Shown piece by piece: positions 27,632-63,939 of a stretch of DNA of 64,000 nt; the stretch's first letter is position 1; the number at the start of each line of letters is the position of its first letter. Source of the stretch: Prorocentrum cordatum (lineage: Eukaryota; Sar; Dinophyceae; Prorocentrales; Prorocentraceae); the NCBI GenBank assembly GCA_963575745.1, contig CAUYUJ010021043.1, positions 1 to 64,000 of the forward strand, in the 5' to 3' direction. The position numbers and the translations under genes were made by a program. The notes under the pieces were generated by a model, which did no database searches, was not told where the DNA came from, and saw only the letters and a program-made list of their open reading frames with translations.

Positions 27632-29524
27632 ATGAGCTATGATGAGACAGCCGAATTGCCCGTCGGATCACAGGTTGTACAGCGAGGCGGGCAAGAACAC
27701 AAGGACAGCGGCCCGGGGGAGGGCCGCCTTCTCTCTTCTTCTAATGCCATTCGAATTTCTCGTGGAAGGGGTGGGGGAGAAGTTATAGATCTGTCAATCG
27801 ATGATTCCCCCACTCGCATTCCGATCAGGGATCGTGAACAGACCCCAGACCCGATAAGGCGGGACGGCACGGCAGTAAATGTCAGGCGCAGAGCCTTTCC
27901 ATTTTGGATTGCCGAATCCTCTGAGACAATACATTCCAGCCCGGTCGCAATGCGGTCTGTTGAGCCGGCCGCTGGCCTAGCCAGTGGGTCGAAAGACGGA
28001 AAAGAGTCCGGCGGCATGCCCCCCTCCGTCCCAGACGGATGGGGTCGCGCGCATGGGACTTATCCCATCCCGATAGCCTTGGACGGGCAAGCCGGTCAAG
28101 ATAGCGACGAACAGCTTGATGACGAAAATGATATAAACTCCATGGAGGAAGACATAGAGTATGCCAATTTTCAAGTGTCACCAGGCCAAGATTTGTCGCT
28201 GATGAGTGCTGCTGACCATCCCGTCCCGGACGGAAGGTCATCCCCTGGGCAAGAAACCGTTGACTACGATCATTTGGAAGACCTTGTGAAGGCGCTCGCA
28301 GAGCCAGACTTAGATACCACGAACAGCGACCTGCCGCCACAGGCGGACGAGGTTGAAATGGGTTCTCAATATCATGTGAAGCATGACCGGGAGATTACGG
28401 GTCGAACCCCCGCCCCTCAACATAAGAAGCATAGGAGCGAAGATTATGATCTGAATGATTCCCCGCTTCAGGAAGGGTTTTATTGAACTGCCGTCGGCCC
28501 AGGCGATTGGCAACCGCTGGTGCCCGCGGTAGTTGAGGATGATGAGATGCTTGACCACCCGGCAACACTCACCGAATTGGTTAAACAAGATGCACGGGAT
28601 GAGGAGCTCCGAGAGGTGGCCAAGCCACCGGAGAGCACGCACGTCCGTCCTCGATCATCTGCCTCTAGCAGGGGAAGGCCCAAGATACCACGATCTGGTG
28701 CCCGATCGACTTCGAGGAGTAACAGTACAGTATCCATGCGTGAGGTGTGCTGGAACCGAGGCCCAGACTGCCCGCCCCAAGCGGAAAGCAGGTGTCCGGG
28801 GAAAACTCACAAACAGGGTTGACCCTGCAAGCGTCCAGTGTGTGGAAACTGTTCTAACGTGTGTCCCATTTGCGGCAATCAATGGCTGTGCGAGGATTGC
28901 TTCCAGATGGAAGAACATAACTGTTCATGCCTTCTCATACAGGCTATGCAGGATCAGGCCAGATTCGTCGAGGCCAAAATGCAGCAATCAATCGTAGCTT
29001 TGGAAGCCCAGAGGGCCGAGCAGGCCCGACTGGATCAAGAAGAAATGAACGCGGTTATTGAGGGCGTTCGGAAGAAGTTCGAGGCTGAAAGAGCCACCCT
29101 GGCCCAAGCTGCCAGAAGGCGGGAGCAAGAGCTGATGGAACAAATGTCATATCAGACCGCGGCTGTCCAACAGCGCGCGGAAGAAGAAGCCGAGAACATA
29201 CTTGTTGAGACAATATCTTCTGTGCGACAGGCTGCCGGGGCGGCGAACAATCAATCTGTCGACGCCAAGGCCGCATGCGCCGCTGTTGCCGCGGCGAGAA
29301 TAAAAAGGGAGAGGCCCGCGACGGCCAGGGCAGAACATGACAAACATGAGCTCCAAGACCAACTTAGTGCTGCCAGACTGGAAGTGGCCAACACACAGAT
29401 TGTAGCTGCGACGATAAGTGATCAGAATAATCAACACAGAAGAGAGATAAAGTTACATGAGAATGCCAGAGCATCTCTTCAGCGAATGCAAGCAGGCGAC
29501 GAGATGCGCCTACCGGCTAGCTAA
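27632..29524 (+). pseudogene. Copia element: N-terminal gag-like region
   Basis: A single frame runs through with TGA at 28484-28486 and 28820-28822 and TAA at 29522-29524. The first part is acidic and disordered (VIDLSIDDSPTRIPIRDR). The middle contains a Cys/His cluster (CGNCSNVCPICGNQWLCEDC, then EEHNCSC) resembling a B-box or treble-clef zinc site. The last ~200 residues are a long charged coiled coil (EAERATLAQAARRREQELME). Probably structural; the function is not known. 29525-30217 continues in broken frames with several stops (QAEWNEQWRRHSADPNFRAQ is readable at about 29799-29858). Confidence 0.6.
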
Positions 29525-30217
29525 GCCGGCGGAGGCGAGCAGACGACCATCGCCAGCGGCCCAGCCGACTGGTGCGACGCCCTCGCAGGCCCAGCCTGGC
29601 CTGGCGCCCCCCGGAGGGAGGAATGCCGCCAATGTTGCGAGCGAGGGCTGCCCAGCAGCCACAGCCCACAAAAGGGCCCAATGAAGAGAATTGCTCAGTA
29701 TCCTCGAGTCCGAAAATCGGGGAATGCGCTACTTGCGGATCGCCAAGTTGTAAAGACCACTTTAACACGAGCACCAACGAAAGAGTTTGCCTGTGGAACA
29801 GGCGGAGTGGAATGAGCAATGGCGGCGACATAGCGCTGACCCCAACTTTCGGGCTCAGCGGCAGAAGCTCCTTAATGAATTTTTCGCTGGTAAACTCACG
29901 TAAGACGCAGCGGATGAAGGGGGCAAACTGATGAACAGCTTCGTCTGAGCTCAGAAAAGTCAGCTGCCGAAGCTCGAGAGAAGGATGAGGCATTGGCACC
30001 CGCAGTTGCATCAGAGAACGAAGTGATGGAGCTCAAGGCTACCGCCACCGAATCCTTGAAAGAGAAAGGGCAACATGCGCAGAATCAGTTGCAATCTGCC
30101 GACCACGAAGCGGCCGTGATAGGAAGGGCAAAAGTGATGACGAGATCTATGGGGATGGAAGTCTTTCCACACATCGAGAAAGAATAAGATACACTGCCCA
30201 GGCTTAGTCTATTCGAC

Positions 30218-32518
30218 ATGCCCTATCTTTCACAGAAGACGCCCGTGAGGCCCACCATGCGACCTCATTATACTGTTCCTGGCCCTGCAACCGAAGGTCC
30301 GGCAAAGCCTGGTACCTCCGGGATCGGCGTACCCATCAACGCGGATTTGACAGGTATCACCGATGGCATGACCTTCATAAACTATCATCCTTTCACCGAG
30401 GCGGGGCCAGCGAAACCGCCAACTGCCCAGCCGCCTGGTGGAGATAAGGGTCATGCGCCAGCGGCCACGCCGCCTGGCGGGGCAGGACAAGACAAGGATG
30501 GGGATGATCATAGTACCGCGCCAAGTACCGAGATTCTGCCAGCACTCGCTAGCGCTATTCGAGACCAGTCGGAGAAGCCGCCCCCAGGGAGTCCAGGGGG
30601 TCCTGGATCCCCAGGCGGCGGAGGTGGTCGTGGTGGACCTTAGGGTCCAGGAGGGCCACATGACCAGGGAGGTCTTGATGAAAGTACCCCTCTGGATCAG
30701 TGGAGACAAGTTGGAAACAATCAGAAGGTGATGGACATTCCTGATTTTACAAAGATACGGGAGTGGCAGATGCACACGGTTCGTGCTGTTGCTGGATCGC
30801 CTCCTGAGACTCGGGAAGCACAGCTCTGGATCATGGAAGCTATGGACCCTTCTGTGGCTAACGAGCAGCTCAGAAATCCGGGTCGGTTCCAACGTTTGGA
30901 CATCATGATTGCCACTAACTTGATTGAGAAGTCCAACAAAATGCGTAGGAATCGCGGTCTCTCCACTCATCATATTCACTTCCTTCAACAGATCAATCGT
31001 ATGGAATACGGCGCCCAGAACGAGCAGAGGCTATTGAGGGGGCGCGAAATGATACGAGCCATTTGCACTTGGTGTTCCGTCAGATCGGAGTTGGGTCAAC
31101 ATCGCATTTCGCGTGATCTCTTTAAGGTAGTTATTAACCCCAATCGCCCAGATGCTGACCTATATCATTTCTATAATGAGTAGGCAGATGCTTATCAGCA
31201 GCTCTACGGCGTACGACCTCCATCTGACGAGATGCGAGCTTCGATCCATGCACACTTCATTGCGCAATGCAGGAAGCCGAAGAAATTGGAGTTTGTTTGC
31301 CAACTGTATGATTTGTCCACGGACAAGTTAGGATAGGGCATTAAAACCTATGCATGGCTCATATCTCAGATTGAATGGATGATGTTGCGTGAAGAGGAGG
31401 AATGGAACATCAGTATGCATGAGGGTACTTTGAACCAACGTGCGAGACGGACACGGCTGGGCGGTGGTGGAGGCAACGGCAACGACAATCGCCGAGGCCT
31501 CAACGGCAAAGCCGCTGCGGCAGAAGTGGCAGCGCGTCTTGGGAAATCCACGGATGTTATGAAGAACGGAGTAACCAAGGGCGAGACGACGTGCAAGTTT
31601 GTGCGTAAGGGCGATACCTGCCCGCATGCAGGTCAGGGATGCCCCTACAATCATAAGAGGCCTAAAGCCGCCGCTCCGGCCCAGCCGGTCGCGGGGGCTA
31701 CGTCAAGCGCTGCCCCGGCTCCGAACCCGAGTTCCAGAGGGAGGTCTGAGAAACCTTAAGGCGGAGGCCGAAAAGCACAGAGCCGATCGCAAACCCCGAC
31801 GGGTGGCCGTGGGAAGAGCACGCAGCAACGGAACAGGAGTCCATCCATTCGCTCGCGCGGACAAGAGAATACGTTGCCGTGTTGCGCTTACTCACGGGAC
31901 CCTAAGAACTGCCGTGGACCTCCAGACGGTTGCCACAGGCAACGCAGAGCCTTGACCGACGCAGAAAAGTTCAAGCGCGACAAATACGAACAAGCGAAGC
32001 TTGATGCGGGACAGACTCTGGGGCATGAGCGCACAATCAAACAAGCCAACGCCGCTGCTGCCAATGTCTCTTCATCCGCGGGTGGTGGTGGCTCTAGGGC
32101 CTCTAGCGCCAGCTCGGACAGACGCAAGAAATATGGAGACAATAACAAGGGCAGAGGCAAAGGTAAAGACATGCTATGTCGCTCTTTCAAGGAAACGGGG
32201 AAGTGCACGCGCGGAAAGGAGTGCTGGTTCGCTAAGACCACGCCCAATCATCCGCGACACTGGCTCCGCACTGGCGGCCCAGCCGCCAGCGCAGAAAGAC
32301 TGATTGGAATAAGTTTGTTAAGGATAATATTCCCTGCCTTCGTCGCTAGACGGACGCGGCGACGCCCGCGTCGGTCAAACCGAAAGCGGGGGGGCAGGGG
32401 TGCGTCCACTGACCCAGTCAGCTTGGGCGCGATAGCGCGCCCCGCCCCGTTAATTCGGGGCCTTCCCGGGCAGAAGCAGGTCGGCCCTCATTTTCCACAG
32501 GCCTCTATAGATATTGAC
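30218..32518 (+). pseudogene. Copia element: gag core with CCCH zinc fingers
   Basis: A proline-rich leader (30218-30643) is followed by a gag core (FTKIREWQMHTVRAVAGSPP, later LIEKSNKMRRNRGLSTHHIH) that continues through TAG at 31181-31183 and another TAG at 31334-31336. Next comes a nucleocapsid-like part with Cys/His clusters: CKFVRKGDTCPHAGQGCPYN+H (C-x8-C-x6-C-x3-H), a Cys cluster around CCAYSRDPKNCRGPP, and CRSFKETGKCTRGKECWFAK, where the expected final His is Lys. A TAA interrupts at 31757-31759. Such CCCH fingers bind the element RNA in related gag proteins. Confidence 0.7.
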
Positions 32519-32821
32519 GGATGAGTTGAGAGATATCCCGCCAGTGGGGAGTTTCTCCACGAGCGCAGGGAGCAAGTTGAGAGTCTGGTAAATATCCTGG
32601 CCAATGTCCTGCGCCCTCTTCCTCGGGGCGCTATCCGGATGCATTGGAGCGACCCCCCTAGCAAGAGTTGCCTTCGATCTCGGACGAAGGGTCGGTGCAA
32701 ATTCCGCGTCCGGTTTCGCCCCTCGACTGTGGAACCCGCCATCACTTGCAGGAAGGCGCGTCGCCACGACCTAAAAGAGTTGCCCTCAAGTGACACAGGC
32801 AGGTAGAGGCTCCCAGTTGAC

Positions 32822-33290
32822 ATGCGCCAGCAGTTATCCACCCAGTGGAGAGCGTCTGCGGCGGAGGCCCTAATCAAGGCATCAGACCTACAAGACGACG
32901 TCTGGCACCTTTGGTCGAGGACCGAGGAGGGGGAAGAGGGCCCACACGGCGCAACCGCTGCGGGATGTACAGACAGAGATGTTGCATATCTTGGAGCGCT
33001 GAGCTTTATCATTGATACAGGGTGCGGGTATAACCCCATAGCGGAAAGGCATATTAAAAGTGCAGGTGCAATGATATTGATTCGAAAGCTTCCGCAACCG
33101 ATCACTCTGAATACTGCCGGAGGGGAGTCAAAAGCCCTCGGTTCAGTTCGCATCGCATGCCCTAAATTTAAGGCTGGTAGTTTTAACGCATTGGTCATGC
33201 CGGAGACTCCAAGCGTGATCTCGGTAGGAGAGCGGCGCATGGATCACGGCTTTAGTTTCTTCTTGGCCAGCAGTTCGAAGGCCCTGCCTT
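32822..33290 (+). pseudogene. Copia element: aspartic protease
   Basis: Catalytic motif FIIDTGCGYNPIAERHI (D-T-G), flap-side strand ITLNTAGGESKALGSVRI, and the typical copia stretch MPETPSVISVGERRMDHGFSF. It cleaves the gag-pol polyprotein in the family. The frame is lost at about 33290, after which the next part is read one frame over. 32519-32821 has no clear open frame. Confidence 0.8.
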
Positions 33291-34166
33291 TTGTTGCCCA
33301 ACGGTCAAAGAGTGGACCTGATCGTTGGGGGCAAGATACCAGACTTGACCCTTTCAGGCAAAGAGGCGCTGGGTCAGTGGATGCGCGCGGTTGCCGCTGG
33401 GGAGGGCGAACCCCCTCATCAGTGGTGCTGCGTGACGCCAGGCGCCGAGGCGTTTCTGGATAATGTGGAATCGGCGGGAGGCCCTCCGCCCCATGCTGTT
33501 CAGACTCGCGTAACCATAGACTTGCATACACATGAGTTGATTGGAAACCACAGCTACGTTGACGGACGGCCGACTGAGCTCGCGCCCGTTTTTCCGTCTT
33601 CATTAGACTCTGCGGATACCATCATTTGTTTCTACTATTCGCCTCGTAAGGCAAGCGAATGCGGTTGGATTCGGACACCCACCGCCGTTGCTGCCTCCAA
33701 ATGTCTCTCGACTATGCCCTGCCACGGCCAAGCCGTCGGTTGGACTGACGAGCAGCCCGGCAAAGCTGTGGCCTGCGTAGCCGCATATAAGAGCCCTGGT
33801 TGGCACGGGGTCTCAGGATACCGACCCTATGAGATGGATCAAGGGTTGAACTCCAATGCGTGCGATGCGGCCCCCGGGCCCGAGGAGGGTGAAGTTGGAG
33901 ACGCTGACGGTGTCGACCTGGTCGACATCGACGCGCCGTCAGAACCAGACCCAGATGATGCAGAGGTTGAGGTGTCGGGCCCCCTTGCCGAGCGGCTCAA
34001 AAAGGCTGCAGCCCCCCTTTCGCATCTTCTAATTCATACTCCCAAGAACCCATATTGCTCAGTGTGCAACCGGGCCAAAGCCATCAGACGACAGCAGCGC
34101 AAAGCGCGCAACAAAGGGCTAAGGTTCCCCGCCCATGCGCTAACCCCACTTCGTTTGGACACCTGA
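33291..34166 (+). pseudogene. Copia element: linker and gag-pre-integrase zinc site
   Basis: Continues the protease C-terminal strand (MLPNGQRVDLIVGGKIPDL) in a new frame, then a long low-complexity acidic linker, and ends with an HH-CC zinc site (HLLIHTPKNPYCSVCNRAK) that normally precedes the integrase core. A TGA closes this frame at 34164-34166. The integrase core continues in another frame from about 34140. Confidence 0.7.
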
Positions 34167-35174
34167 CGACGATGGATCATTGGTTTGCGATGGATGCACT
34201 CTCGCGGTGGCTCTACGATGAGACCGCGCGCGTGCCTTTTCGCGACCGAGCAACTGATTTCCTCGCCGCTCAGGGTGTACACGACAAGTCTGCGGTTTAC
34301 ATTTGTAACTTTGTAGTAAACCTTAAAAGCCCCGGGAGAGGAGTTAGAATACTGTTGTACAGATGGTGCACGTGAGCTTGCAAGGGCATGTTACAAGCTC
34401 AAGATTGCCCATGATCCTACCATCCCAGGAAATAAGAAACAAAACGCTGTCGCCGAGCGCGCGAACGGCGTGGTGCAGATAGCTCGAGCTCTACTTATGC
34501 AGGCCGGTCCCCCACCACCATATTGCACGTATGCCGTCAGATATTTTTGTCTCTGCTACAACGCTAGGGCCCCTGAGGAAGGGAAGTCTAGTTGGGAACG
34601 TCGCTTTGGACATCCGTTTGAGGCGCCGCTTCTTCCCGTCGGGTCTCTCGTATGTTATGTACCCCCGCCAAAATCGAGATTTCGAAAAGCCAAGACTGGC
34701 GGCGCAATGATTCCTGGGTTATACCTGGGGCATGTGCACAAAGCGGGGGGCATGGTTGGTCCAGAGAGCTACGTTGTGCCGCTCAGGCAGCCAGACGGAC
34801 TCAATATGGAATCGGGGCGCGCGCCTGAGGGCAAGCGACCCGCCATTGAGAAGTCTGATCAGGTCTACAGCAACATCCTAGATGGCACTGCTGACGACCA
34901 GTCGCCCCAGTTTCCTATGAGGAAAGCGTGCGAGAAGGCTATGACTGAAGTGCGCTCCGTTGCGATCCCTCCAGCCGGCGAGGCCGCGGCCGTCCCAGAC
35001 GTTTCGGGGCAGGGGGCAGGAGTGCAGTCGGTCCATCCGTTTGGCGCAGAGGATTCCGCCATGATTATGCCGCCGCCTCCTCGAGGAGGCGAGGGCGCTC
35101 CACCACCAGACTCAGAGGCCGATTCCGACGACGACGGCGCGGGGGGTTGTGCGTGGATGACGAGCCTGCGGTAA
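34140..35174 (+). pseudogene. Copia element: integrase
   Basis: The first catalytic Asp lies in FGHLTTMDHWFAMD (about 34150-34195). After a frameshift near 34320 the second Asp lies in CCTDGARELARACYKL and the catalytic Glu in NKKQNAVAERANGVVQ, giving the D-D-E set of a DDE integrase. The C-terminal part (YAVRYFCLCYNARAP, WERRFGHPF, GSLVCYVPPP) is the usual copia extension. It inserts the cDNA. An acidic, proline-rich tail ends at 35174. Confidence 0.75.
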
Positions 35175-38100
35175 TTGACGGTCGGGGCCCACAGCGAGAC
35201 TCTCGTCCAGATGAAGATAAAGATCAGAAGTTAGGTCTCGCACACATCGAGTACCGTTTGGATCGCCAATCTAACTTTTCAGCGGCCAAGCCGCGTGAAA
35301 AAAGTCCCCGGGAAAGGGCGGCTCCTTGCTCGCGCGACTCAGAACCTTGATGCGTTGGAATGCGATGAGGACCGGCGCGTTGTCGTCGGACTGACGAAAG
35401 AAAAGCTGACACAAAAGCTCCCATTGACGGGTCGTCGAAAACATGCAGCATACGAGTTGTTCTGCATTATGATCCCGACTATGTTCCTGTTACTCAAGTG
35501 TGGGTTACAGACCCAGGCCCGAAGCGCGGTGCTCAACGGCTAAAGAAATTGCCCGAATCCACCAATCCTGGCATTCATCCTGGGCGCTGGTTCAATATGA
35601 TTCAGGCTCAACGCCGACGGGCTGCCGATCAATGCAAGGCTGAGAGGAGAGGATTCTTCGGCATTGACGATCCCGGCCCATGTCTTGCCCCCCTGCGTGA
35701 TATAGGCTTGGACGTGAAAGATCCGCCAACTCCGCCCGAGCCCGCAGTGGCACAGCCACCCGCGGTTCGCCCACTCTCTGAGGGGGACGCTGCTTACCTT
35801 GCGACGCAGCCAAAGGCAAGGAGAGCCGCGCCGTGGGTCGTTGAGCGATTCCGTCGTCAAGCGGCATAGGGCGGCCAAGCCGCAGCTGCGGCCACTGAAA
35901 CCTCCGAGGAGGACGACTCAGACGACTACCTTTCGGATGATGAGGATGCGCGGTGGAGGCAAACTTGGCACGGCGGCGCCATTGCGCGTGATGGTGCCCC
36001 CTGCGGCCCAGCCAGTAGGGGCCCATTGTCTGACGCGGATTCTTAAATTACTCAATGGGCAAGCCTGACCTCGAGTCCGGCGGCCGCCGCGTCGCGGCGA
36101 AGCGTGCCTCGAATGCCGTTGCAGCACAGCTCGGCCCCGATGCCAAGTCATCGTGAAAAAGAAAAGCTTGATTTGGATTACCCATACAACCCTTTTACTG
36201 ATCTCATTTCAATTATCGAAGAGCCTTTTCAACTTCCCGCTGAATGGCGACAAACTCAGGTTGATGCCGCTGTAGCTCGATCGGTTTCTCAAGTCGAAAC
36301 CCAGGCTAATCAAGATGCCCAGGCTGCTTTGAGAAAGGAATGGAACCGATTGCGAGACATAGGTACATGGGACGAGGAAGGCGTCAAATAATATGCCGAC
36401 GTTGTTGCAGAACTTCAAGGGCAGACTGCCCACTTCGGTCGTCCATTTGCGATCCTTGTCGAAAAGAACTCCGAGTTGCCACGCGGACACAAATATCGCA
36501 AGTATAAAGGTCGGGTCGTCTTCGACGGTTCGAGCGTGAGAGATCAGAATGCAGATGTCGCGTTGTTTCAGGAACTTTCCAGCAGCCCTGCTACGATGCA
36601 GGCCAGCAAAGCAGCTGACACCTATGGGCTCTTCGAAGGCCATAGTATCGAACAAGCCGACGCCCGTCAGGCCTACACTCAATCAAAGTTGGGTGGCACC
36701 CCGACATGGGCATTCCTGCCCCATGATGAGTGACTTGAGTCATGGTCACATATGCGCAATCCCGTATGCCCGTTGATTATATCTTTGCACGGGCACCCTG
36801 ATTCAGGGGGATATTGGGAGCAACGCTGCGAAGGGCACGTCACGGCTAAAGGCTCTATCAAATGTAGCCCGTGTCGCAGTTGTTATTTTCACACAGAAGT
36901 GAAATTAGTCCTGATACTCTATGTTGATGATTTCAAACTGGCTGGTCGTGCTGACAAGCTAGCTCAAGCATGGGTGTCGTTGCAATCCCCATCTCCCAGT
37001 TGCCCCAAAGGCATAGAGATAGATCCTCCAACAGCGGTCGGACGGCACTTGGGTTGCGAACATCGTCTCTCCACGCAGTTTGTCGAGTGGCAAGGTGAGT
37101 TGCCCGCGACTTTGGACCCACCGCCTCCTAAAGTTAAGAAGAACGCACCCGTCCCAGACGAGAGCGATGAGGAAGAAACGGGGGGTGACTCGACGGCCCA
37201 GCCGCCGGAGCCATACCAACCGAGAGAACCCAAACAGGCCAGAGCTATAGAGTACGACATGACTGAATTATTCGAATCCTGTGTCAATTTATATGCCCAA
37301 CTCACAGATACTGACCCAGCTACTTATCCTGCTGCGGGTGCCCCGTTTGGCCCCGAACTTGCAGATCTCGAGGGCGGTCAAGGCGGGCCGAGAGGCGAAG
37401 TTTGCCCCCCTGCGAAGGAAGCAATAGCATCAGCTTTGTATATCAATGTTGACATTGGGCCCCCAGATCAAGAGATCGTCGTGCACGGCCTGGACGCCGC
37501 AGCGGCCAGCCCCGATGATCCGGGGCCACCGACCCAGTCGGGCGTGCTCCAGCCCATTGCAGCGAAAGTATTGATGAAGATCCTGTACGGTGCGAGAATG
37601 GCTCGATATGACCTGCTCCGTGTTGTTTGCCATGCGGCCAGTTGCATTACCACATGGACAGAGCAACAAGACATGGATCTCTTCCGCTTCATTTGCTACA
37701 TAAATTGTACTTCTCACTACCGCATGTCTTCATGGGTAGGCGATAGGATGGAGGATGTCTTGTCGAAGCAATACTCCGATGCGGATCTGGCCAGTGACAT
37801 CCGAACACACAGGAGCACGAGTGCCAGTTATCAAGCAATTCGGGGCCCATATACTAGAGCTGGGCAGTCTATGAGATCTCAGCGGCAGACGTGCGTTTCC
37901 CATAGTACTCTTGAGGCTGAGATTGTGGCTGCCGACCTTGCCTTGCGAGAAGAACTGCTTGCAGCCCTCCCGCTTTGGGAAATATTGCCTGGGCGACAGA
38001 TGCGTTGCCTTTTCTTCGAAGATGGCCGGGCAGTTTGCAAGGTCATCAAACCCGGGGGGTCCATGAAGCTTGTGCACCTTCCGCGAACTCATCGCATTGA

Positions 38101-38284
38101 TGCTGCCGCAGTATCTGAACAGTTCTCTCGAGGTATCGTAGAACTTCAGCACGAGCGGACTCAAAATGAGGCTGCTGACATTGGAACGAAGAGATTTACA
38201 GACCCTTTGGCTTGGGTTAAAGTATTATATCTTGTAAAAATTGTAACTCCTAAATTTTGGATCGCCCAGCGGTGCCAAGACTAG
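35150..38284 (+). pseudogene. Copia element: reverse transcriptase and RNase H
   Basis: One frame from about 35498 to 38284, broken only by stops (TAG 35867-35869, TAA 36045-36047, TAA 36389-36391, TGA 36731-36733). RT fingers and palm: GRVVFDGSSVRDQNADVALF, EQADARQAYTQSKLGGTPTW. The catalytic YVDD is in LILYVDDFKLAGRAD (about 36909-36953). The stop at 36731 falls where relatives have a Trp-containing motif before PESW-like sequence. RNase H follows at about 37860-38200 (TCVSHSTLEAEIVAADLALR, HLPRTHRIDAAAVSEQF, ELQHERTQNEAADIGTK). It copies RNA into DNA and degrades the RNA strand in active relatives. Confidence 0.85.
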
Positions 38285-38363
38285 TTAGACTCGATGTTTT
38301 CAGACGGCCTCCCCCTGAAACCCGGGGGGGTTCTGAAGCCCAGCTTTAGGTCCGAGCCCGGCC

Positions 38364-38939
38364 TTGCGGAGAGGAGCTGCTGTACCCGGCAAGAAGATGA
38401 ATAAGAAAAAGAAGCGTGTCAACAAGGGTAAGCCCGCTGTGCATTCTCCAAAACCAATAAATATCCCAGCGGCGCCGAATGGCGCCCAGCGCCCGGCCGC
38501 CACCGACGCTGCCCCCGGACAAGCCGCGGTGGCAAATGCGCCCGGCCAAGCCGAGGTAGCGAGCGCGGCGAATGCACCCGGCCAGGCCGAGGTAGCTAGT
38601 ACAACTACTCTTGTTACGGAGAGAGACGGTTCCAGGAGAAGCCCCGATAAATCCAGGTCAAAGGAGGAGATCGAAATGAGGGCGATGTTTGACTTAACCG
38701 AGAGTGAAAGTGAGTCTGATACATCGGATCTGTCAAAAGCGATGCGCGACGAACAGTCGAGGCTCGAGCCGGTCAACACCGAGCAAGAAGAAGACACGCT
38801 CGGTTACAACCTTCTTCTTCCCCACCTTCCTCCTGCTGTTGCTGCTAACTTTCAGAGTAGGGGGATCACTGGACACAACGCGGACAGAGTCTTAAACGAT
38901 GGCACTTTGTTCCCAGACTTGTCACGCTTACGCCCGTGA
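38364..38939 (+). CDS. Basic/disordered ORF downstream of RNase H
   Basis: 191 codons. The N-terminus is Lys/Arg-rich (KKMNKKKKRVNKGKP), then Ala/Pro/Gly repeats encoded by two tandem 36-nt units (38540-38610, each with a CGGCCAAG/GGCCGAG hairpin core), then an acidic Ser/Asp/Glu stretch (DLTESESESDTSDLSKAM) and a C-terminal motif LGYNLLLPHLPPAVAANF. No family recognised. It starts 80 bp after the copia RNase H, so it is either an accessory ORF of that element or the first ORF of the next one. Confidence 0.4.
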   Translation: MRRGAAVPGKKMNKKKKRVNKGKPAVHSPKPINIPAAPNGAQRPAATDAAPGQAAVANAPGQAEVASAANAPGQAEVASTTTLVTERDGSRRSPDKSRSKEEIEMRAMFDLTESESESDTSDLSKAMRDEQSRLEPVNTEQEEDTLGYNLLLPHLPPAVAANFQSRGITGHNADRVLNDGTLFPDLSRLRP

Positions 38940-39159
38940 ATACAGGTTGTCCAGTTGACCCGAATAGGTTGGGTGATCGGCGTCGTACCTATGCAATCAA
39001 TGTCCGACATGGTTTGACTGTTGACCGTACGGATAATTGGCGTAACGAACGTAACACATATCATCACTCTTTTGAGCACAAGTCGAATGACGATTCCAGC
39101 GATGGCGACTATCATCCAAGTAGATGGACCGGCTGGACTGAATTCTGGATCCGGGACGA

Positions 39160-39860
39160 TTGCGCCCGGCCACCCAGTGGACCGGGGATCGACTCTTATT
39201 AGAATATTGTTGTGGCCCTCAGAGCAGGATTGGAAACCCCAAGAATTCTGTTGATAATTCGTGTAAGGTAATACGGTGTACGGAAAAGGAAGATATGAGG
39301 ACCGGCAAGGGAAGACGATTGGCTCTGAATGACATAAAGAAGTTCAAGGGACAACACATAACTTTTTGGGGCTCAGTGCCCTGTACGGGAGGTTCCCCCT
39401 GGCAATACGCGAACGAAGCCCATGATTTTCGCACTGGAAATCATAGAGCTATGCGTAGACTTCGAGGTATTAGGACTGATTTTTGATATCTGTTGGAATT
39501 TCCGCGTGATTGCCCGTGCTGTGCACAAAGCGAGGGGGTGCAGTTTGTCTTGAGTGGCCTACACAATGTAGTTATTGGAGGGCCCCCCAGGTGAAAGAGT
39601 TCATGAGAGAGCTAGGGTCTGTCAAAACGGCTTTGCATGGGTGTGCGTATGGATTAAGGGACAGTAAGGGTAATTTCATGGAACAAACCCTGGACGATCG
39701 CATCCACATCTCATGACGTGATTGAGGGACTCGAGCGCAAGTGTGACGGCACGCATGAGCATGTTGAGGCCAGAGGCCGGGAATGTAAGTCGGCTGAAGA
39801 TTACACGGGTGCCTTTGCTAAGCAGGTTCACGTTGTTGTTGTTCGCGCCGCTGAGCGCAT
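39160..39860 (+). pseudogene. Methyltransferase-like domain in retroelement
   Basis: Three successive frames rebuild one domain: LLLEYCCGPQSRIGN (glycine-rich first strand), CKVIRCTEKEDMRTGKGRRL, TFWGSVPCTGGSPWQYANEA (a PC motif after a strand, as in cytosine methyltransferases), VCLEWPTQCSYWRAPQVKEF, HGCAYGLRDSKGNFM, and CDGTHEHVEARGRECKSAED. The order suggests a Rossmann-type methyltransferase fold. Frameshifts near 39490 and 39717 and stops show decay. Family assignment is from motif order only. 38940-39159 has only short open frames. Confidence 0.5.
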
Positions 39861-42134
39861 GTTATCGACTCGTCGTCGTCCTGTCCCCTCCTCTAATTCC
39901 ATATGTGCCGCTGCCGTTTTGTCTCCACAGCTTGCGCGGGCCGCCCAGCGGCCGGCCTCCCCTCGGACCGCGCTGCCGCCGCGTTGCGGCTGCGCGGGCC
40001 CTGCCGGCCGCGGCCCCCGCGCGTCCGATTGGTCATTGGCCAAACCCATGTGTCAACCGCTGGATACTCCAGCGGCTAAGCCGTTGGGGGATGATGTGAC
40101 CTCGGTTTGCTCGGATGATGTTGTGTATGAACTCGCCTCGGATTTGCCTGAGGATGAAGAACCTCCCATCGGGGCAAAAGGACAGGCCCCTCCAAATGCA
40201 AGTCGAAAGGCACCCCCATCGGCCCAGCCGAGTGGGGGCGTCGCCCCGTCGGCCCAGCCGGCCACGGAGACGACTGACCCTTTTAGCCCCAGTGATGTCA
40301 TGATGAATGTTGACATCGAAATGGAAGGAGGCGTCGAGATTCACGCAGAGGATATCGCAGCTCGTAAGAGAGCTGCCTCCGCTGCTATTGACGACAACAA
40401 GCCTGCCAAAAGACAGCTGCCTCTTCTCAGGGGAAACATAGTTCCCGCGGGGAGCAGCCTGTCTTTCGGCGTTTTCCTGATAAGACCGAATGGTCCAGGC
40501 CTAGTTATGCAGGTAACATCAAGTTCGTGCGCAAAAAGGGATGGAGTTGGCGCTACACGATGTGGCGACACCATATCTTGTACATGCGGAACGACCAAGT
40601 CGTTACCGCATTGAAGGAAGATTTAGCTGCCAGCTCCCAGACGGTCTTTGAGCGTCTGTTTTCTCATGTCTCGCAAGACCCGTGGGTCGCCCACTGGACG
40701 ACATACGACAGAATGGCCACGTGCCGTCTTGATTGTGCTCCTCCTAAGATTGACCAGATTCCTGAGGGAACTTATGTTCAGTCATACCCTGATGAAATGA
40801 CGAAGCTGGTCTGCAGGTTTTCCACGAACGCACCGGGGGAGACCCGACGTCCTGTCCGAACTCTCGAGAAGGGAGAGGTCGCGGGCCCCACCTTTGGCAC
40901 AGCCATCCGGCGGGTGACGATATACGGTGATTTTGTGAGCATCCCAGTGAGGGACAACAAGACGAAAGGCTCTCCCATTTTGTGGTTGAACATGCGGGGC
41001 CCTTCGCCGCATGCCCCGCCCCGCGGCGAGCCCGCTGGGGACGGTTGGGGCACTATGTATGCCCTGCCTGTCGCCACAGGCCGACCTTACATGCCCGCGC
41101 ATGTTGTAGAGGAGGCTCTCACCGATTCAGCCAGAGCCAGTTATTTTCAGTCTTCTCCTCAGCAGGCTGTTGCCCGGCGCAGGGCAGCTCCTCGGTGGTC
41201 GCGCCCCTACGACTGCAAGGGATGGCTTGCGAGTGATGGCCTTGAAGACGGTGTCGGCTCGACTGACAAGCCGCACCTCCCGCCAGACACTGCGGCCAAT
41301 GCCGACCAGCGCGACCCAGTCGTTGCTGGAGAAAGGCCACTTTGCCCGAGGGTCTTGAGCAGCCCAATCTTGAGACGCCTTCTGAGGGCCCTTCTAAAGA
41401 CAGAGAGAAGTGTCCGGTCAAGGCGCCGAAAAGGCCACGCTTGGGAGCGGAGATGCCGGCCGACCCAGTCGGCTCGGCCGGCCAGCAATCGAGCGAACAT
41501 TGCCATGCCGCTTCCTTCGGTTGGATCTGCCCCGCAGACGCCCTTGCGCAACCCTGGAGCTGGTCGGCAGGCGACCGGCGGATCATCCGCCGGGTCGGCC
41601 TCGAATCCGGCTGCCCCGCCCGGCCAAGCCGAGGGCGGGGCAGGCGGTGGCTCTCCCCCTGGCCCAGCCGGTGGTGGAGGTGCCCCGTCCGGCTCAGGCG
41701 GCTCTCCCACGGGGAACCCTCCGCCCTCCGGTGACCCCCCTGGGGGCGGCGGCGGAGGTGGGCCCCCTGATGGGGGATCGATGGCAGTCGATGACGAGGG
41801 GAGGGACCTGCCCTACCTTGGGCGCGGCCCCTGGAACGTCCTCGATTACCACTGGCAGATGGGAGAATTAGCCGAGGACCCCAAACCGCCATTACGCGAA
41901 TGGGAGGCTCGAGTGTCCGAGATTATTCAGCCTTACGTTGGCATTACAGATCCCTGGCTGAAGGCCTGGACGGGGAAGTTGTCGCTTCAGGAGAATTGCC
42001 AGGCTATGACCCAGGTTGCCCGCCAGAGTGGGCATTCATGGGTCCCTTCTGTTGGTGAGGACATTGCGGCCATCATGGCCACCGGTAAGCCTACTGCGGA
42101 CTTTGTCCACCCTTTGTGCTTGATGCAACACTAG
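39861..42134 (+). CDS. Unrecognised retroelement coding region, long linker
   Basis: The first part (to 40614) is a Pro/Ala/Asp-rich linker with several hairpins in its DNA. From about 40527 another frame gives a compact segment (WSWRYTMWRHHILYMRNDQV, FERLFSHVSQDPWVAHWTTY, RRVTIYGDFVSIPVRDNKTK), then a long Gly/Pro/Ala linker to 41790, and a final folded-looking part (YVGITDPWLKAWTGKLSLQE, QVARQSGHSWVPSVGEDIAA). It ends at TAG 42132-42134, after which the same frame continues. No known family recognised. Confidence 0.45.
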
Positions 42135-43817: not shown

Positions 43818-44457
43818 ATCCCCGCTCATGGAGAGGCTTGGTTAGGTTACCAGATGCTACAAACGTCCACGAAGACCCTTGTCTTGGAACCTGCTTATAT
43901 TGTTCCCAATTGGGCACGTTTCTTCGTGATTAAGGCCGATCGGTCACGTGAAGATCCGGAGGCCACCGTTGCTGATCGCCTGAATTGGGGGAGGTTGTCG
44001 ACAAAGAACCACAAGGCGGGGGGCATCCACTGTGCACAGCTCACTTTGCCCTTTCATGTAACTGAGAGTGAGCTTGAGGAGGTCCAAGACCCGTCCTCAG
44101 AATGGAGCAGACAATCTCATGGTACGTCTGTGACCGCCCTCCATTCGATATTGGAGGGCCATCAGTTGCTTGCGTCGAATCTCCTCTACGGAGGTGGTAG
44201 CAAGAAGCAACGTGTGGGTCTGTAGTCTTTTCCTTGTATTAATGACCCTTCCACACATACTGTATATTATGTTGCAGAGGAGACTTTTGTTGATGGCATC
44301 TGGGTACCTGCGGAGGTTATTTTCTATGCAAAACCTGCATGCGTCAGGGGCTCGCCCGATCAGTATTGCAGTGACCCATCACAGATGGTGTTGAGTGAGC
44401 TTCGCTTGTACCATTAGACGCCAGCGGCACTTCATGTCACTCCAGCTCACAGTTTCT
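43818..44457 (+). pseudogene. ADP-ribosyltransferase-like domain
   Basis: The same frame continues from the SGNH-like part. The core reads QSHGTSVTALHSILEGHQLL, then KKQRVGL-stop-SFPCIND, STHTVYYVAEETF, GIWVPAEVIFYA, and DQYCSDPSQMVLSELRLYH. An H-G-T-S strand followed by a helix, a GLY-like turn with YY, and a late Q-x-L-S-E strand is the layout of PARP/Tpt1-type ADP-ribosyltransferases (H-Y-E core). TAG codons at 44223-44225 and 44415-44417 interrupt; the first falls where a Tyr would fit. Confidence 0.4.
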
Positions 44458-44560
44458 TGCAACACGTCGCTAGACAGAAGAAGTGGCCCCTGGAGCAAGA
44501 CTTCGGGGTTGAGCGTCATCGCGCCAAGTCCGAGAGGCACAGAGAGGGTGGGTCCCAAAT

Positions 44561-45048
44561 TTGGGACCCATCGTTTGGCAGAAGGAGCGAAGTCCGTATC
44601 GGCCACATCGCCAAGAATTTGACGACATTTGGCCATGGCTCCAAGAAAAAGGAGTTAGGCTCACTAGGATTAACCCGCTGTACAAAGATGAAGCCTCTGA
44701 CGCATCCAAGACGCTTGTTAAGGCTAACAAGGAGAACGAGGACAAGGCCAAAGCCAAATCATCAACCGACGTTCGCGCCCAGGCGCCGATGGCCAAGCCT
44801 TAAGGCGCCCCTTTTTCGCTTGTTGCCGAGGACTTTCCGCCTTTGGGAAGGTCTGGATCCCAGGCTGAGGGGGTGCCCCAGTCTCCGCCCGGCCCAGCCG
44901 CGGCTGAGAAGGTGCCTCCTCCTCCTTGCGGAGATGCAGCTGCGGGCGCGGCTGCGCCTCCACCCCCGCCGAGGGAGGCGCCGTCATCAGTTGGGCCAGC
45001 GGACGATGCGCCAAAGAAGCCTCCGCCACCTTCTGATATAAAGATGGG
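44561..45048 (+). CDS. Proline-rich linker, left half (split by YR element)
   Basis: A short folded-looking part (QEFDDIWPWLQEKGVRLTRI) is followed by a Lys/Glu helix, TAA at 44801-44803, and a Pro/Ala linker ending DDAPKKPPPPSDIK at 45048. The same KKPPPP phrase and style resume at 60345, so the 15-kb YR element appears to have landed inside this linker. Confidence 0.5.
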
Positions 45049-45318: not shown

Positions 45319-45446
45319 CCGCGAGAGGCCCTCGCGGAGAGCGAGGACCGCGCCGACCGCTGTGCGGCAAGCGCGTGCGAGCCCCCAGATGGGGCCCGCC
45401 GAGCAAACTCGGCAGGGGCCCCACTCCTTTGGCGTGGGTGGGTGGG

Positions 45447-50552: not shown

Positions 50553-50559
50553 CGGGCCC

Positions 50560-58021: not shown

Positions 58022-58084
58022 ACGCTCCTCACTCCTCCTCTCTGGCCTCGCACCTCCTGGGCGCTGATCGCCGTCCTCGCCATC

Positions 58085-60230: not shown

Positions 60231-60343
60231 ACCCCAAAAATATTCGCGACCCCGCAGGGGCCTTGAGCAAACGGCGGCGGAGGAGGGCAGCAGAGAGGAG
60301 GCTGCGAGGCGGGAGGAAACCCACTGTTCTCACGAACGATCAC
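60231..60343. repeat. YR element repeat A1
   Basis: 113 bp matching A2 at 45447-45559 apart from scattered substitutions, ending CTCACGAACGATCAC at the element boundary. Confidence 0.93.
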
Positions 60344-60344
60344 C

Positions 60345-61185
60345 GCCGCCACCGGCCAAGTCGCCGAACGTTGTGGCGAAGAAGGATCCGCCCCCACTTA
60401 GGCCGTGGGATGATTTGCCGAAGAAGCCTCCGCCACCTTTCGGTCCGAGAAGTGATGCACGAGTGGCACTGCCTCCACCGGCGAAGGTGGCTCGCATTGA
60501 TACTGAGGAGAGATCCCCCGCTAGGCCCGCCGATGCTGCCCCCGCGGTCGCGCAGCCACCGGCAAAGCCGGCGGGCGAAGGAATGGCGGAAGGCGCGCCC
60601 CAGGCTTGGCCTGCGCCTCCAGGTAGGCCAGATTGGACGCCCCGTCTTCGCTCGCCTAAGCCCCCGCCTCGGACTGCTGCGAGATGGAGTTTTCAGCGTC
60701 AACCATTTGCCGACTATAGGGATCAGCAAGCTGACGCTACGCCTAAGGCGGCACCTCAGCGATCGCATTTCAAGGCTTATCCGGGGTCTTCCCAGTCTGC
60801 CCAAGGCGGCACTGGTGTGGACCCGGCTATGCAGGCCGAGGGCTCCGTGGCAAAGGCTGCGGCAACTGAGACAGAAGCCAAGACTGCCGAGGATGTGGGC
60901 TCTGATCGCCCCGGAGGCAATGAAAGGCTGGACAATCATGCAGCACCTCCCCCGAGTCAGACGGACGGTGACCCCTCGTCGGAGGAGTCTCTGCCCCCAA
61001 AAGGGGGAGACGCTGCATCTAATATTATCCGGACCATCAACGACGTCTCACATCGCCACTTTGAAGGAACGCAAGCACGCAACGCGCTAAATCTTGATAA
61101 TTTGCAGGAGATGGATGTGCAAATTGACGCAGCAATGAGGATATACAAACATGCGGAGAAAAAGAGGAAACACGAGCCGGGATAA
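60345..61185 (+). CDS. Proline-rich linker, right half
   Basis: Frame PPPPAKSPNVVAKKDPPP, WDDLPKKPPPPFGPRSD, continuing Pro/Ala-rich, then a helical C-terminal piece (HFEGTQARNALNLDNLQEMD, AAMRIYKHAEKKRKHEPG) ending at TAA 61183-61185. The same frame continues with DPWKRFAATVVDHIQSAKPD. Interpreted as the continuation of 44561-45048 beyond the inserted YR element. Confidence 0.5.
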
Positions 61186-63072
61186 TACTCGGACCCGTGG
61201 AAGCGGTTTGCAGCCACTGTTGTAGACCATATCCAGAGCGCGAAACCAGATTTCGTTCCTACTCCTGTGATCGCCGCCAAGAGCAAGCGTTCACAGCCTC
61301 GCACTGAAGGCGAATTGATTGTAGGTGGAAACAGGCTGCCTACTCCCCCTGCGCCACCGTCCGGCCCAGCCGTGGCGGCGAGCGCACCTAAGCCTCCGCC
61401 TGGCCCAGCCAGAGCGGAGACCACACCGACGCAGGGGGACCAGATGATGGTCGATTCGGGCGCTGTTGATGCAACGCACGCTGCGCCACATGAGGCTGCC
61501 GAGTCATCCCCTATCAAAGATGTCCAGAGCTCTTCTGATGAGGCGGCTGCGCCCGCTGCGAAGGCAACCCCGCCGGTCGCCGCTCCGAGCGGACATGGCG
61601 TGGCGGAGCCTTCCCCTGCGGACAGAACCCCGGGTGTCCCAGACACACCGGGGTCCCTTGAGGCCAGCCCAGACCTTGTTCACCTCCATGAGTTCCCGTA
61701 TCAAGGGGACCCTGACCCTATCCACCGTGAGGAGGAGCATTATCGGTCTGGCCCAGCCTCTACCAATTTCTACTGCCGAGCGAAACTGCCGTCTTCCCCT
61801 GATATGCGGCAGCCTAGCCCGACGGGGGATTCGCCCCGTGAGGGCGATCATGAGGTTTACGTCGGCCATGCTGACCAATTCAGGGGCAAAGAGCTATATC
61901 TTCCGCTGGAAGACCGCACTCGAATCAATGATATTACGCCCGTCCATTTGAAGCGGAGAGTTCGAGAGGCTCATACTACCGGTCCTGTACCCCCTCGTGT
62001 TGAGGCCCTTCGTAACAAAACGTTTGGCACGCTCAAACAGATTGCACAGCTCATGGAGGATCCCATATTTGCATTGTTAGGCGAGCTTTCTGTTGACATA
62101 GGTAGCTTTGAGCAGGTACGAGACTTTCTCCGTGCAGGATTTCACTCTGACGATGTCCCCAGCGGATTTGACTCTCAGGCCTTTAAGGTCCTGGCTCCGT
62201 TGGCTGTGGGCATTTCTAATGGCGAGAATCCAGCGGCCCTAGGCTCTGTGGACTTTTGGCGACACCACAGTTGTCGATTAGATGATTCTGCGAAGCGTAT
62301 TCGAGATTTTGCCATGTATCTCGCGAGACACTGCTCCGATTCTGCGCGGTCTTCGGGAGGCTGGGTCTACTTTGGAGACCTTGTGGAGAAGATGTCTGAA
62401 GATGGGTATATTTATCAAACATTCGCACTTGCTGCGCACGGCCTAGCCGCGCTGCAGCCAGGGACCGTGGAAGTCCTAGGTGTGCTCCCTGAAGACATTG
62501 CTAGCATTAAAGAAACGAGTGTTCACATGCAGTGGCGCGACCTTAAAGCGTGGCTCCTTCTTGGGGAAGAGCGGGCTAAATGCCTAGTTCCTGTTTTTCA
62601 TCGAGCGTGCCAGGGACATTCCACTCTTGTCGCCTCGATTGGGAGGATGTGTGCGCCTTACGACCCTGGCCTAGCCAGGTGTCATGGGCCCCTCCTCCAT
62701 ATCACTCACATGGAGACATTGATGGGATCCATGGTCGGAGAAGTCCAGTTCCCAAAGAGCACGCCTGGGCTTTGCCTCGAGGCGGACTATGGATTGTTGA
62801 GGCTTCTTCCAGCCAAGAGGGATCCGAACATGAGAGAACCAGATCATATTCCTTCCTGGCTAAGCCAGCGTAGGGATGGAGATCCTGCTCCTGTGAAAAA
62901 GCACCGCGCCATGGGCCAATACCAAGTGACGGGAGAGCCTCCTACGATTGGGGCATGGCCCGCAGCGGACACAGTCCGTCTGTGGTACCAGCTTCCGACA
63001 CACAGAGACTCTTGGCCAGTAGTTCTCGTTTTCAATGGCCGAGTGCTCACCCGGGTGCCGGATCTGCCGTGA
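61186..63072 (+). CDS. Tpt1/KptA-like RNA 2'-phosphotransferase-type protein
   Basis: About 300 residues of Pro/Ala-rich and unassigned sequence precede the core. The core begins AMYLARHCSDSARSSGGWVY then FGDLVEKM, which matches the LLRH ... GWV ... DLL winged-helix signature of Tpt1/KptA. About 80 residues later FHRACQGHSTLVASIG matches the family R-A-x-Q-G-H-S motif, followed by LARCHGPLLHITHMETLMGS in place of the usual H-G-T strand. Tpt1 transfers a splice-junction 2'-phosphate of tRNA to NAD. Here the HGT is HGP, so activity is uncertain. The C-terminal part (DYGLLRLLPAKRD, TVRLWYQLPTHRDSWPVVLV) ends at TGA 63070-63072. Confidence 0.5.
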   Translation, partial: YSDPWKRFAATVVDHIQSAKPDFVPTPVIAAKSKRSQPRTEGELIVGGNRLPTPPAPPSGPAVAASAPKPPPGPARAETTPTQGDQMMVDSGAVDATHAAPHEAAESSPIKDVQSSSDEAAAPAAKATPPVAAPSGHGVAEPSPADRTPGVPDTPGSLEASPDLVHLHEFPYQGDPDPIHREEEHYRSGPASTNFYCRAKLPSSPDMRQPSPTGDSPREGDHEVYVGHADQFRGKELYLPLEDRTRINDITPVHLKRRVREAHTTGPVPPRVEALRNKTFGTLKQIAQLMEDPIFALLGELSVDIGSFEQVRDFLRAGFHSDDVPSGFDSQAFKVLAPLAVGISNGENPAALGSVDFWRHHSCRLDDSAKRIRDFAMYLARHCSDSARSSGGWVYFGDLVEKMSEDGYIYQTFALAAHGLAALQPGTVEVLGVLPEDIASIKETSVHMQWRDLKAWLLLGEERAKCLVPVFHRACQGHSTLVASIGRMCAPYDPGLARCHGPLLHITHMETLMGSMVGEVQFPKSTPGLCLEADYGLLRLLPAKRDPNMREPDHIPSWLSQRRDGDPAPVKKHRAMGQYQVTGEPPTIGAWPAADTVRLWYQLPTHRDSWPVVLVFNGRVLTRVPDLP

Positions 63073-63099
63073 CGGGGCCCTCGTGCCCCGTGAAGTGCC

Positions 63100-63939
63100 A
63101 GGTTCACCGAGATCGATATAGCTGTCACTCGCGCCAAAATCAATGGTTGGCCCAATGCGAACCGACAGTTGATCTCATGGTCAGTTATCTTTAGCCAGGA
63201 GTGGACCTCATATGAGGTGGATTTTGATGATAACTCCATGCTTGGTTGGATTCACACCGACGAGACTTTGACATTGAGGCCAGGATTCCGTCCTTGGTCT
63301 GACAGAGCGGACGCATTTATTCAGTCCGTTCCCTGGGAAGACGACGGTCGGTTCCTTTGTGCTGGACTGCACTGGGTGCGGACTGGATTTGGCCGTTGCC
63401 CCTTTTGTAAGAACCCCGTGAAGTACAAGTACATGGTTGCGCAAAATTATCTGCTTCAGACACTTAAGCACAGAACCATCGAGGACTCGCTGCGGAGAAA
63501 TGGTTTTAGGCTGACCGTTCTCGATCATGAAACCTTTCCTTGGGCGCATGATCGTTATGTTACAGAGAGAATAAAACGGCAGCGTAGAGCGTCAGCGGAT
63601 GTCATGACGAATACCAACAATAATTTGAATCTGGAACGTAAGTGGGCAGAAAATGGATTACGTACAATGGCTGCTTCAGGTCAAACCTTTGGAAACAGTC
63701 GCCCTGGCAGCGTTCTTGCCTGGGTTCCTGAACGCGCAGCGGCCCAACCGCCGGCGCGTCGCGGACCTTTCTTTCAGCACCTTGAATTCCTCAAGAGGCG
63801 ATTCATAAAATGGATAGCGCACTTTGCTAATAGACATGGGTTTCTGGCACCAGCGATCGCTGAGTGGTGGCCGCTGCTTTGGGCCACAGACATCGATCAG
63901 TGTGCGCGCCCCTTCTCGTCCCGCCCCGGCTGCGATTGA
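63100..63939 (+). CDS. Cys-containing C-terminal segment, unrecognised
   Basis: Same frame as the Tpt1-like part, after TGA codons at 63070 and 63091. It reads FTEIDIAVTRAKINGWPNAN, WTSYEVDFDDNSMLGWIHTD, a small CPFCKNPVKYKYM zinc-knuckle-like site, a charged helical part (RYVTERIKRQRRASADVMTN), and FLKRRFIKWIAHFANRHGFL. It stops at TGA 63937-63939. The remaining 61 bp show no feature. No family recognised. Confidence 0.4.
   Translation, partial: RFTEIDIAVTRAKINGWPNANRQLISWSVIFSQEWTSYEVDFDDNSMLGWIHTDETLTLRPGFRPWSDRADAFIQSVPWEDDGRFLCAGLHWVRTGFGRCPFCKNPVKYKYMVAQNYLLQTLKHRTIEDSLRRNGFRLTVLDHETFPWAHDRYVTERIKRQRRASADVMTNTNNNLNLERKWAENGLRTMAASGQTFGNSRPGSVLAWVPERAAAQPPARRGPFFQHLEFLKRRFIKWIAHFANRHGFLAPAIAEWWPLLWATDIDQCARPFSSRPGCD

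Follow-up and report, generated by a model that had tools for sequence, protein, structure and literature searches.

Sense-strand triloop hairpins in a giant copia-like retrotransposon of the dinoflagellate Prorocentrum cordatum: a candidate dispersed RNA recognition signal

Short hairpins with a recurring three-base loop are scattered through retroelement coding sequence of the dinoflagellate Prorocentrum cordatum, and the question is what maintains them there. The DNA concerned, here called the window, comprises bases 1–64000 of a 145.7-kb contig (CAUYUJ010021043.1) in an assembly of 4.13 Gb. A sequence-only reading of it had described a family of triloop hairpins closed by C-G, and had proposed selection on hairpin structure or an origin as micro-mobile palindromes or by templated inversion, with RNA packaging or readthrough as possible functions. 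The hairpins quoted there exist, as the 15 places looked up match the quoted sequences, and the retroelement setting is supported as well. All the hairpins fall inside a single Ty1/copia-like long terminal repeat (LTR) retrotransposon, which extends from window position 27,272 to contig position 66,231 and measures about 23.7 kb after subtraction of a 15.3-kb foreign stretch at 45,048–60,343. It is very likely that selection acts on the structure of these hairpins and likely that they form a signal read by a protein; the leading use proposed, a dispersed RNA signal for Gag-driven RNA selection or assembly, is given a probability of roughly 0.5.

The main descriptor demanded a triloop closed by C-G and ending in A; its stem had to contain at least 10 base pairs (bp) in total with a single bulge or a single internal loop, or else an uninterrupted run of at least 7 bp. 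It finds 27 hairpins on the sense strand of the window's element and none antisense, 28 sense and 2 antisense in a related copy on contig C12458 (copy A), and 18 and 0 in the examined part of another on C18655 (copy B); sense orientation relative to the element is nearly complete. Fourteen of the 27 loops are CCA and seven CAA, followed by ACA (2) and by CTA, TAA, GCA and TGA (one each). The third loop base is A in 27, 28 and 17 hairpins of the window's element, copy A and copy B, against 2.25, 1.45 and 1.75 in shuffled sequence. When the final A is not required, the window's element has 35 C-G triloops; 27 of them still end in A, and the eight ending in another base compare with 5.85 in shuffles. 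A bulge, 1–3 nucleotides long in the window's element, lies on the 3' side in 23, 23 and 16 hairpins (window, A, B), on the 5' side in 2, 1 and 0, and is lacking in 2, 4 and 2. Both regularities, the 3' placement of almost every bulge and the final A of almost every loop, had been missed before. The arms differ from site to site with nothing shared between hairpins, and the density is about one hairpin per kb along the element. The loop family as first described stands in that CCA and CAA dominate and the closing pair is C-G, but the CAC loop at 30456 is an exception and neither of the two other copies has retained the hairpin at 38333. At 63732, where a five-base loop was noted in the window, both other copies have a triloop. 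A search of 27000–64000 with Rfam covariance models, up to E 1, matched no family.

Local folding of the RNA gives a mean inner-stem pairing probability of 0.79 for 25 of these hairpins, compared with 0.34 for 28 other triloop hairpins, and the value exceeds 0.8 in 18 of the 25. Such favourable folding, together with the dispersal and the free arms, is also consistent with structure being needed for its own sake, the RNA or its complementary DNA requiring regular local hairpins for compaction, for pausing of reverse transcriptase or for protection, with no protein reading them. Other loop classes lie above shuffles too, with 13 four-base loops closed by C-G against 5.5 and 13 seven-base loops closed by G-C against 4.8; five-base loops closed by G-C number 19 against 6.5, an excess that consists in part of the triloop hairpins, counted here with their C-G pair open. 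However, no loop sequence recurs at loop sizes 4, 6 and 7, and a need for structure would not dictate that the loop end in A, that C-G close it and that the bulge lie on the 3' side, which leaves this explanation unlikely. The fixed loop end and closing pair, the one-sided bulge and the free arms fit a protein that reads shape plus a few bases.

The excess of hairpins reported earlier is borne out by several controls. With a loose descriptor (perfect arms of at least 5 bp, loop C-YNA-G, 40 dinucleotide shuffles) the part from 27.6 to 45 kb has 20 hairpins on the plus strand against 0.7 in shuffles (maximum 3) and none on the minus strand, and the part from 60.3 to 64 kb has 4 against 0.3 on the plus and 2 against 0.15 on the minus strand. 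When bulges are permitted and at least 10 bp in total demanded, again with dinucleotide shuffles, 27.5–45 kb contains 20 against 1.6 (plus) and 0 against 1.3 (minus), and 60.3–64 kb contains 5 and 0, with 0.5 expected on each strand. Outside the element this bulged descriptor yields 4 against 3.2 and 5 against 2.0 in 1–27.5 kb, and 0 against 2.0 and 3 against 2.1 in 45–60.3 kb. The loose descriptor finds 6 against 1.3 and 7 against 1.35 on the two strands of 1–27.6 kb (0 and 2 in 45–60.3 kb), so that by this laxer measure the remainder of the window likewise lies somewhat above shuffles. A codon-preserving shuffle, named beforehand as the check that could overturn the idea of selection, leaves the excess standing: 15 hairpins are observed against a mean of 1.4 and a maximum of 5 in 300 synonymous-codon shuffles, and 14 against 0.42 when only hairpins with a 3' bulge are counted. 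It took in 16 of the 18 coding segments, the other two having no open frame. A codon or composition artefact is ruled out by the dinucleotide and synonymous-codon shuffles.

Such hairpins are near background in twenty other 10-kb stretches of the genome. These were picked arbitrarily, and not by random sampling, from 15 contigs at round coordinates, and at least two contain runs of N; they hold 51 hairpins on 40 strands against about 35 in shuffles, and bulges are on the 3' side in 13 and on the 5' side in 11, without side bias. The pol proteins of the window have no relative in these 20 stretches, which are therefore no test of further copia families. Sequence L024 bears another kind of retroelement on its minus strand, whose CCHC-type Gag and integrase-like part were recognised by eye, and none of such hairpins occurs on its sense strand. 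The minus strand of sequence L027 carries a long, imperfectly matched inverted repeat whose outer arms measure 20 bp (7542–7592 in reverse-complement coordinates), which is unlike the hairpins studied here. Viral contigs were scanned for relatives and none was found, and a search of genome contigs gave one 3-kb contig, L054 (JAPKCZ010000429.1), with a copia-type reverse transcriptase. It has one hairpin on the matched strand (0.12 expected) and three on the other (0.32), hence no comparable sense-strand set; it is binned in a metagenome-assembled genome of Kiritimatiellae and is probably a eukaryotic contaminant. Among the titles and opening lines of abstracts found in the literature, none points to hairpins of this kind in LTR elements, whether of dinoflagellates or of other organisms.

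Another finding was that the same sites bear hairpins in copies which are 78–87% identical. Exceptions are L005 and L007, not alignable at 42893 and 43084, L008 with an insertion within 40584, L042 which is missing half of 41306, and L046 which differs at 41306. The hairpins at 32268, 33716 and 63732 are weak in the window and better in another copy. Taking the window's element and copies A and B together, 42 sites satisfy the descriptor in at least one of the three (one upstream of the LTR of copy A not counted), and some of these, among those present in a single copy, will be due to chance. Divergence between copies is 6–11% in stems, 13–18% in the 60-base flanks and 5–15% in loops. Over the aligned parts, 29546–45047 and 60344–64000, the third codon position varies among the three copies at 31 of 178 places in stems, 5 of 23 in loops and 1388 of 4289 elsewhere (stems versus rest, P 1.6e-5). 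Definition of the hairpins from the compared copies favours conserved stems, and chance hairpins with an equal bias served as control; the target stems vary at 32 of 181 third positions and the chance hairpins at 220 of 740 (P 0.001). For hairpins defined in copy A alone or in copy B alone the same contrast has P 0.002 and P 0.006. A distant paralogue upstream of copy A, with 34–58% identity in translated comparison, retains the hairpin at 42893 with 11 of 13 pairs standard although five have changed, and has no other such hairpin in 1966 bases. The proposal of selection on hairpin structure is upheld by the codon shuffles, the slower third positions of the stems and the regularity of loop and bulge.

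Template switching does generate short inverted repeats, and the hairpins might have arisen by mutation, as mobile palindromes or templated inversions recurring in the element. Against this, the alignable copies have hairpins at the same sites, and no clean empty site was met among the copies examined, apart from local deletions or rearrangements at some sites. Aligned with a relative of 52% identity, the protein is gap-free over the hairpins 62657 and 62960, and aligned with the distant paralogue it is gap-free over that at 42893, which argues against inserted palindromes. In addition, the arms have no common sequence, and the other genome stretches show no bias in the side of the bulge. In open frames of the three related copies pooled, the loop lies in codon phase 0, 1 and 2 in 31, 1 and 19 cases, compared with 351, 193 and 415 for all C-NNA-G pentamers. 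Phase 1 appears to be the phase where third positions can restore the fewest pairs, and its avoidance is as expected were the hairpins made by synonymous change within existing coding sequence. A mobile palindromic element was rejected for the lack of empty sites in related copies and of shared arm sequence, and an origin by mutation is altogether extremely improbable. Readthrough signals are unlikely too, with three hairpins within one open frame (41306–41643) and about one hairpin per kb.

Several observations weigh against the hairpins being copies of one RNA signal. At codon positions one and two, stems show no significant difference from the rest (pooled, P 0.07 and 0.18), and when the window copy alone defines the hairpins, the comparison of third positions with those of chance hairpins has P 0.09. 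Three hairpins were followed through 25 copies (L006 was left out of 26), which had been found by similarity to the 41611 hairpin, whose conservation in this set is consequently ascertained. Paired cells amount to 92.9% against 92.6% in shuffles, many pairs hardly varying; pairs changed on both sides number 3 against 2.5, and the cells concerned 6 against 3.7, a value reached by 49 of 500 shuffles, and the covariation score is attained by 206 of 500. At one pair of 41455–41478 the copies have GC in 19 cases, AU in 3, GU in 1 and no pairing in 2. Compensatory change among the 25 copies is not clearly above shuffles, and the word covarying used at first is apt for arms that differ between hairpins but not for single hairpins compared across copies. 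Copies A and B have roughly double the shuffled number of C-G triloops with a final base other than A (13 against 5.9 and 11 against 5.25), and therefore some members probably carry a mutated loop. The bulged base is not fixed, and the distance from bulge to loop ranges from 3 to 11 bp. The inner pairing probability is 0.8 or less in 7 of the 25 folded hairpins and below 0.3 in four. Concerning the form which is read, loop asymmetry by itself cannot tell RNA from a DNA strand. Changed pairs are G-U rather than A-C by 18 to 10 (P 0.18), as against 15 to 6 in other triloops and 41 to 41 in loops of 4–7 bases, and by 7 to 10 in the 25-copy set; a descriptor with A-C replacing G-U finds 24, 21 and 19 hairpins in window, A and B, compared with 25, 28 and 19. 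RNA is the likelier form, though this is not proven.

In the reading preferred here the hairpins would be copies of one RNA recognition signal, composed of an outer stem, a 3'-side bulge of 1–2 nucleotides, roughly 5 bp of inner stem and a triloop that is closed by C-G and has A as its last base; this signal would be encoded by codon choice within the coding sequence of a giant retrotransposon. The RNA and not the DNA strand would be read, by a protein that recognises loop and bulge and is indifferent to the sequence of the arms. The candidate reader is the element's own Gag-like product with its CCCH zinc fingers, and many weak sites may jointly allow this protein to select, coat and condense the 23-kb genomic RNA. 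RNA packaging, as put forward at the outset, is supported as one candidate, and the features of dispersed packaging signals are found, namely many structured sites with a common recognition motif and free arms. A first look at the genome gave 315 candidate copies of one 351-base region (41300–41650) and 8854 RVT_2 candidates.

The dispersed packaging signal is the nearest published pattern found. In single-stranded RNA viruses such as MS2 many stem-loops are dispersed through the genome and have a common loop and bulge recognition motif, which for MS2 is (x)xYA as loop sequence together with a bulged A on the 5' side (PMC6281560). The element differs from this description in its bulge on the 3' side without a fixed base, its three-base C-G-closed loop and its LTR retrotransposon carrier. 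Ty1, a copia-class element as well, has RNA which is preferentially bound by its own Gag, a pseudoknot in this RNA and a proposed packaging signal at +230–580 near the 5' end (PMC8396678); unlike this one signal region the hairpins extend through the whole element.

The triloop could alternatively serve host control, a cellular protein of the Roquin or Regnase-1 type reading the hairpins and repressing or degrading the RNA of the element, or a host factor using them for export or localisation. Roquin recognises triloop hairpins chiefly by shape (PMC5603727), and the element's hairpins likewise have a triloop and a variable stem, resembling the constitutive decay elements bound by Roquin and Regnase-1 with their short stem. 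On the other hand, sites harmful to the element should be lost, whereas the stems change slowly among the three copies. The dominant loops, CCA and CAA (14 and 7 of 27), end in A and are not of the Roquin-type pyrimidine-purine-pyrimidine form, and the passages of PMC5603727 consulted mention no constant 3' bulge; location in coding sequence and copy number are further differences. Host control is rather unlikely.

A last possibility starts from the open reading frame (ORF) 61186–63069, whose relatives are P0001 and P0002. This ORF and P0001 (52%) contain RACQGHS and further stretches which by eye resemble motifs of Tpt1, and in comparison with E. coli KptA just the RACQGHS motif is aligned (E 0.015). 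The hairpins might then be sites where RNA is cut or processed, by unconventional splicing or by cleavage and repair, with participation of a Tpt1/KptA-like enzyme. The KptA comparison has a probability of only 2.9%, however; the ORF has no Pfam match up to E 10, the best match of its profile among solved structures is ribonuclease T (E 0.12) and not a phosphotransferase, and its structure model is unusable (predicted local distance difference test, pLDDT, 32). As no profile match covers the domain, membership of the Tpt1/KptA RNA 2'-phosphotransferases was not obtained, and processing at the hairpins is very unlikely. Equally doubtful is a cut-and-repair or modification cycle of the element's own RNA, in which the triloops would direct an endonuclease or an enzyme of RNA modification to its targets, while the ends would be healed or marked by the Tpt1/KptA-like protein from behind pol, with about thirty addresses controlling a 23-kb RNA.

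The element itself is bounded by 320-bp LTRs in direct repeat with 302 of 321 aligned positions identical (94%). A genome search for LTRs, in which 40 of 1249 candidates were scored, gave pairs spanning 22.3 to 24.0 kb on eight contigs, besides one pair with a span of 25.7 kb and two more with spans of 38 and 39 kb. Two of the eight contigs, C20645 and C4544, agree in LTR spacing and identities and may represent a single locus that was assembled in duplicate. In the Gag-like region Pfam has a single zf-CCCH match at 31760–32521, right at the cut-off (E 4e-4, 20.5 bits, cut-off 20.5), a second CCCH finger was recognised by eye, and the Asp_protease_2 match (E 0.008) is under its cut-off. The integrase-like region and the window's own broken pieces of reverse transcriptase and RNase H gave no Pfam match in a search to E 0.1. 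The order protease, integrase, reverse transcriptase, RNase H was read off the sequence, with a protease match below cut-off and an integrase without Pfam match. The Ty1/copia type was assigned because relatives of the ORF 36734–38281 (516 amino acids) are annotated with PF07727 (RVT_2), namely 26 of the 100 listed, at best with E 6.8e-83; one listed relative is named Ty1/Copia family ribonuclease HI. Pol is followed by some 12 kb of additional sequence whose ORFs lack known domains, and a search for relatives of ORF 42135–43814 gave none. The plant Ogre elements are likewise giant LTR retrotransposons of more than 20 kb with extra sequence, but belong to the Ty3/gypsy class, whereas the present element carries the hairpins and its reverse transcriptase is of the copia type.

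The length of about 23.7 kb leaves out the stretch 45048–60343 because this is absent from the copies on C12458 and C18655, both collinear over 60344–63936. The foreign stretch has long minus-strand ORFs of 1466 and 1042 amino acids and matches Phage_integrase weakly (E 0.061); direct repeats of 113 bp, 96% identical, lie at 45447–45559 and 60231–60343. Self-comparison of the window detected a repeat region at 496–972. P0002 and P0003, relatives of the element's proteins, stand under a Pyramimonas sample in EukProt, P0003 with 83% identity over 56% of the query, which may reflect cross-contamination or transfer.

Table 1. Parts of the retrotransposon and hairpins in the window
Feature	Position	Strand	Remarks
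5' LTR	27272..27591	+	3' partner at contig 65912–66231, beyond the window
Gag-like region	27596..33460	+	CCCH zinc finger and protease-like stretch, broken frames; Pfam
Integrase-like region	33228..35171	+	motifs recognised by eye
Reverse transcriptase / RNase H, Ty1/copia type	36047..38281	+	from relatives of ORF 36734–38281
Extra region behind pol	38337..45047	+	ORFs 38337–38936, 40392–42131, 42135–43814 without known domain
Extra region, continuation past the 45048–60343 insertion	60344..63936	+	ORFs 61186–63069, 63094–63936
Hairpin, loop CTA	27966..27991	+	1-nucleotide 3' bulge
Hairpin, loop CCA	28021..28044	+	1-nucleotide 3' bulge
Hairpin, loop CCA	29551..29574	+	1-nucleotide 3' bulge
Hairpin, loop CCA	29581..29606	+	full form defined from copy A
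Hairpin, loop CAC	30456..30479	+	departs from NNA loop
Hairpin, loop CCA	32268..32292	+	11 perfect pairs in copy A
Hairpin, loop CCA	32402..32430	+	2-nucleotide 3' bulge; not favoured by local folding
Hairpin, loop CAA	33716..33745	+	1-nucleotide 3' bulge; outer arm 8 bp in copy A
Hairpin, loop CAA	35276..35301	+	1-nucleotide 3' bulge
Hairpin, loop CCA	35998..36021	+	1-nucleotide 3' bulge
Hairpin, loop CCA	38255..38280	+	1-nucleotide 3' bulge
Hairpin, loop CCA	40213..40238	+	1-nucleotide 3' bulge
Hairpin, loop CAA	40584..40611	+	1-nucleotide 3' bulge
Hairpin, loop CCA	41306..41329	+	1-nucleotide 3' bulge
Hairpin, loop CCA or TCA	41455..41478	+	1-nucleotide 3' bulge; window copy not favoured in local folding
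Hairpin, loop CAA	41611..41643	+	11-bp outer arm, 2-nucleotide 3' bulge
Hairpin, loop CCA	42893..42923	+	2-nucleotide 3' bulge; kept in distant paralogue
Hairpin, loop CAA	43084..43111	+	3-nucleotide 3' bulge
Hairpin, loop GCA	43387..43410	+	1-nucleotide 3' bulge; CCA in the other two copies
Hairpin, loop CAA	44075..44099	+	2-nucleotide 3' bulge
Hairpin, loop CAA	60792..60815	+	1-nucleotide 3' bulge
Hairpin, loop CCA	61394..61419	+	1-nucleotide 3' bulge
Hairpin, loop CCA	61627..61654	+	1-nucleotide 3' bulge
Hairpin, loop CTA	62657..62688	+	1-nucleotide 3' bulge; within conserved PYDPGLARCHG
Hairpin, loop ACA	62960..62985	+	1-nucleotide 3' bulge; within conserved protein
Hairpin	63732..63759	+	closing pair mutated; triloop CCA in copies A and B

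If the preferred reading of the hairpins as a Gag-directed RNA signal is true, an LTR retrotransposon employs a genome-wide structural code of the kind which has been proposed for small RNA viruses, and Gag-like assembly and viral packaging signals would be unified. Each RNA molecule would then offer about 30 natural variants of one signal, with related copies, probably hundreds, in one genome, and the rules by which loop, closing pair and bulge specify recognition would become accessible to comparison and to binding assays.

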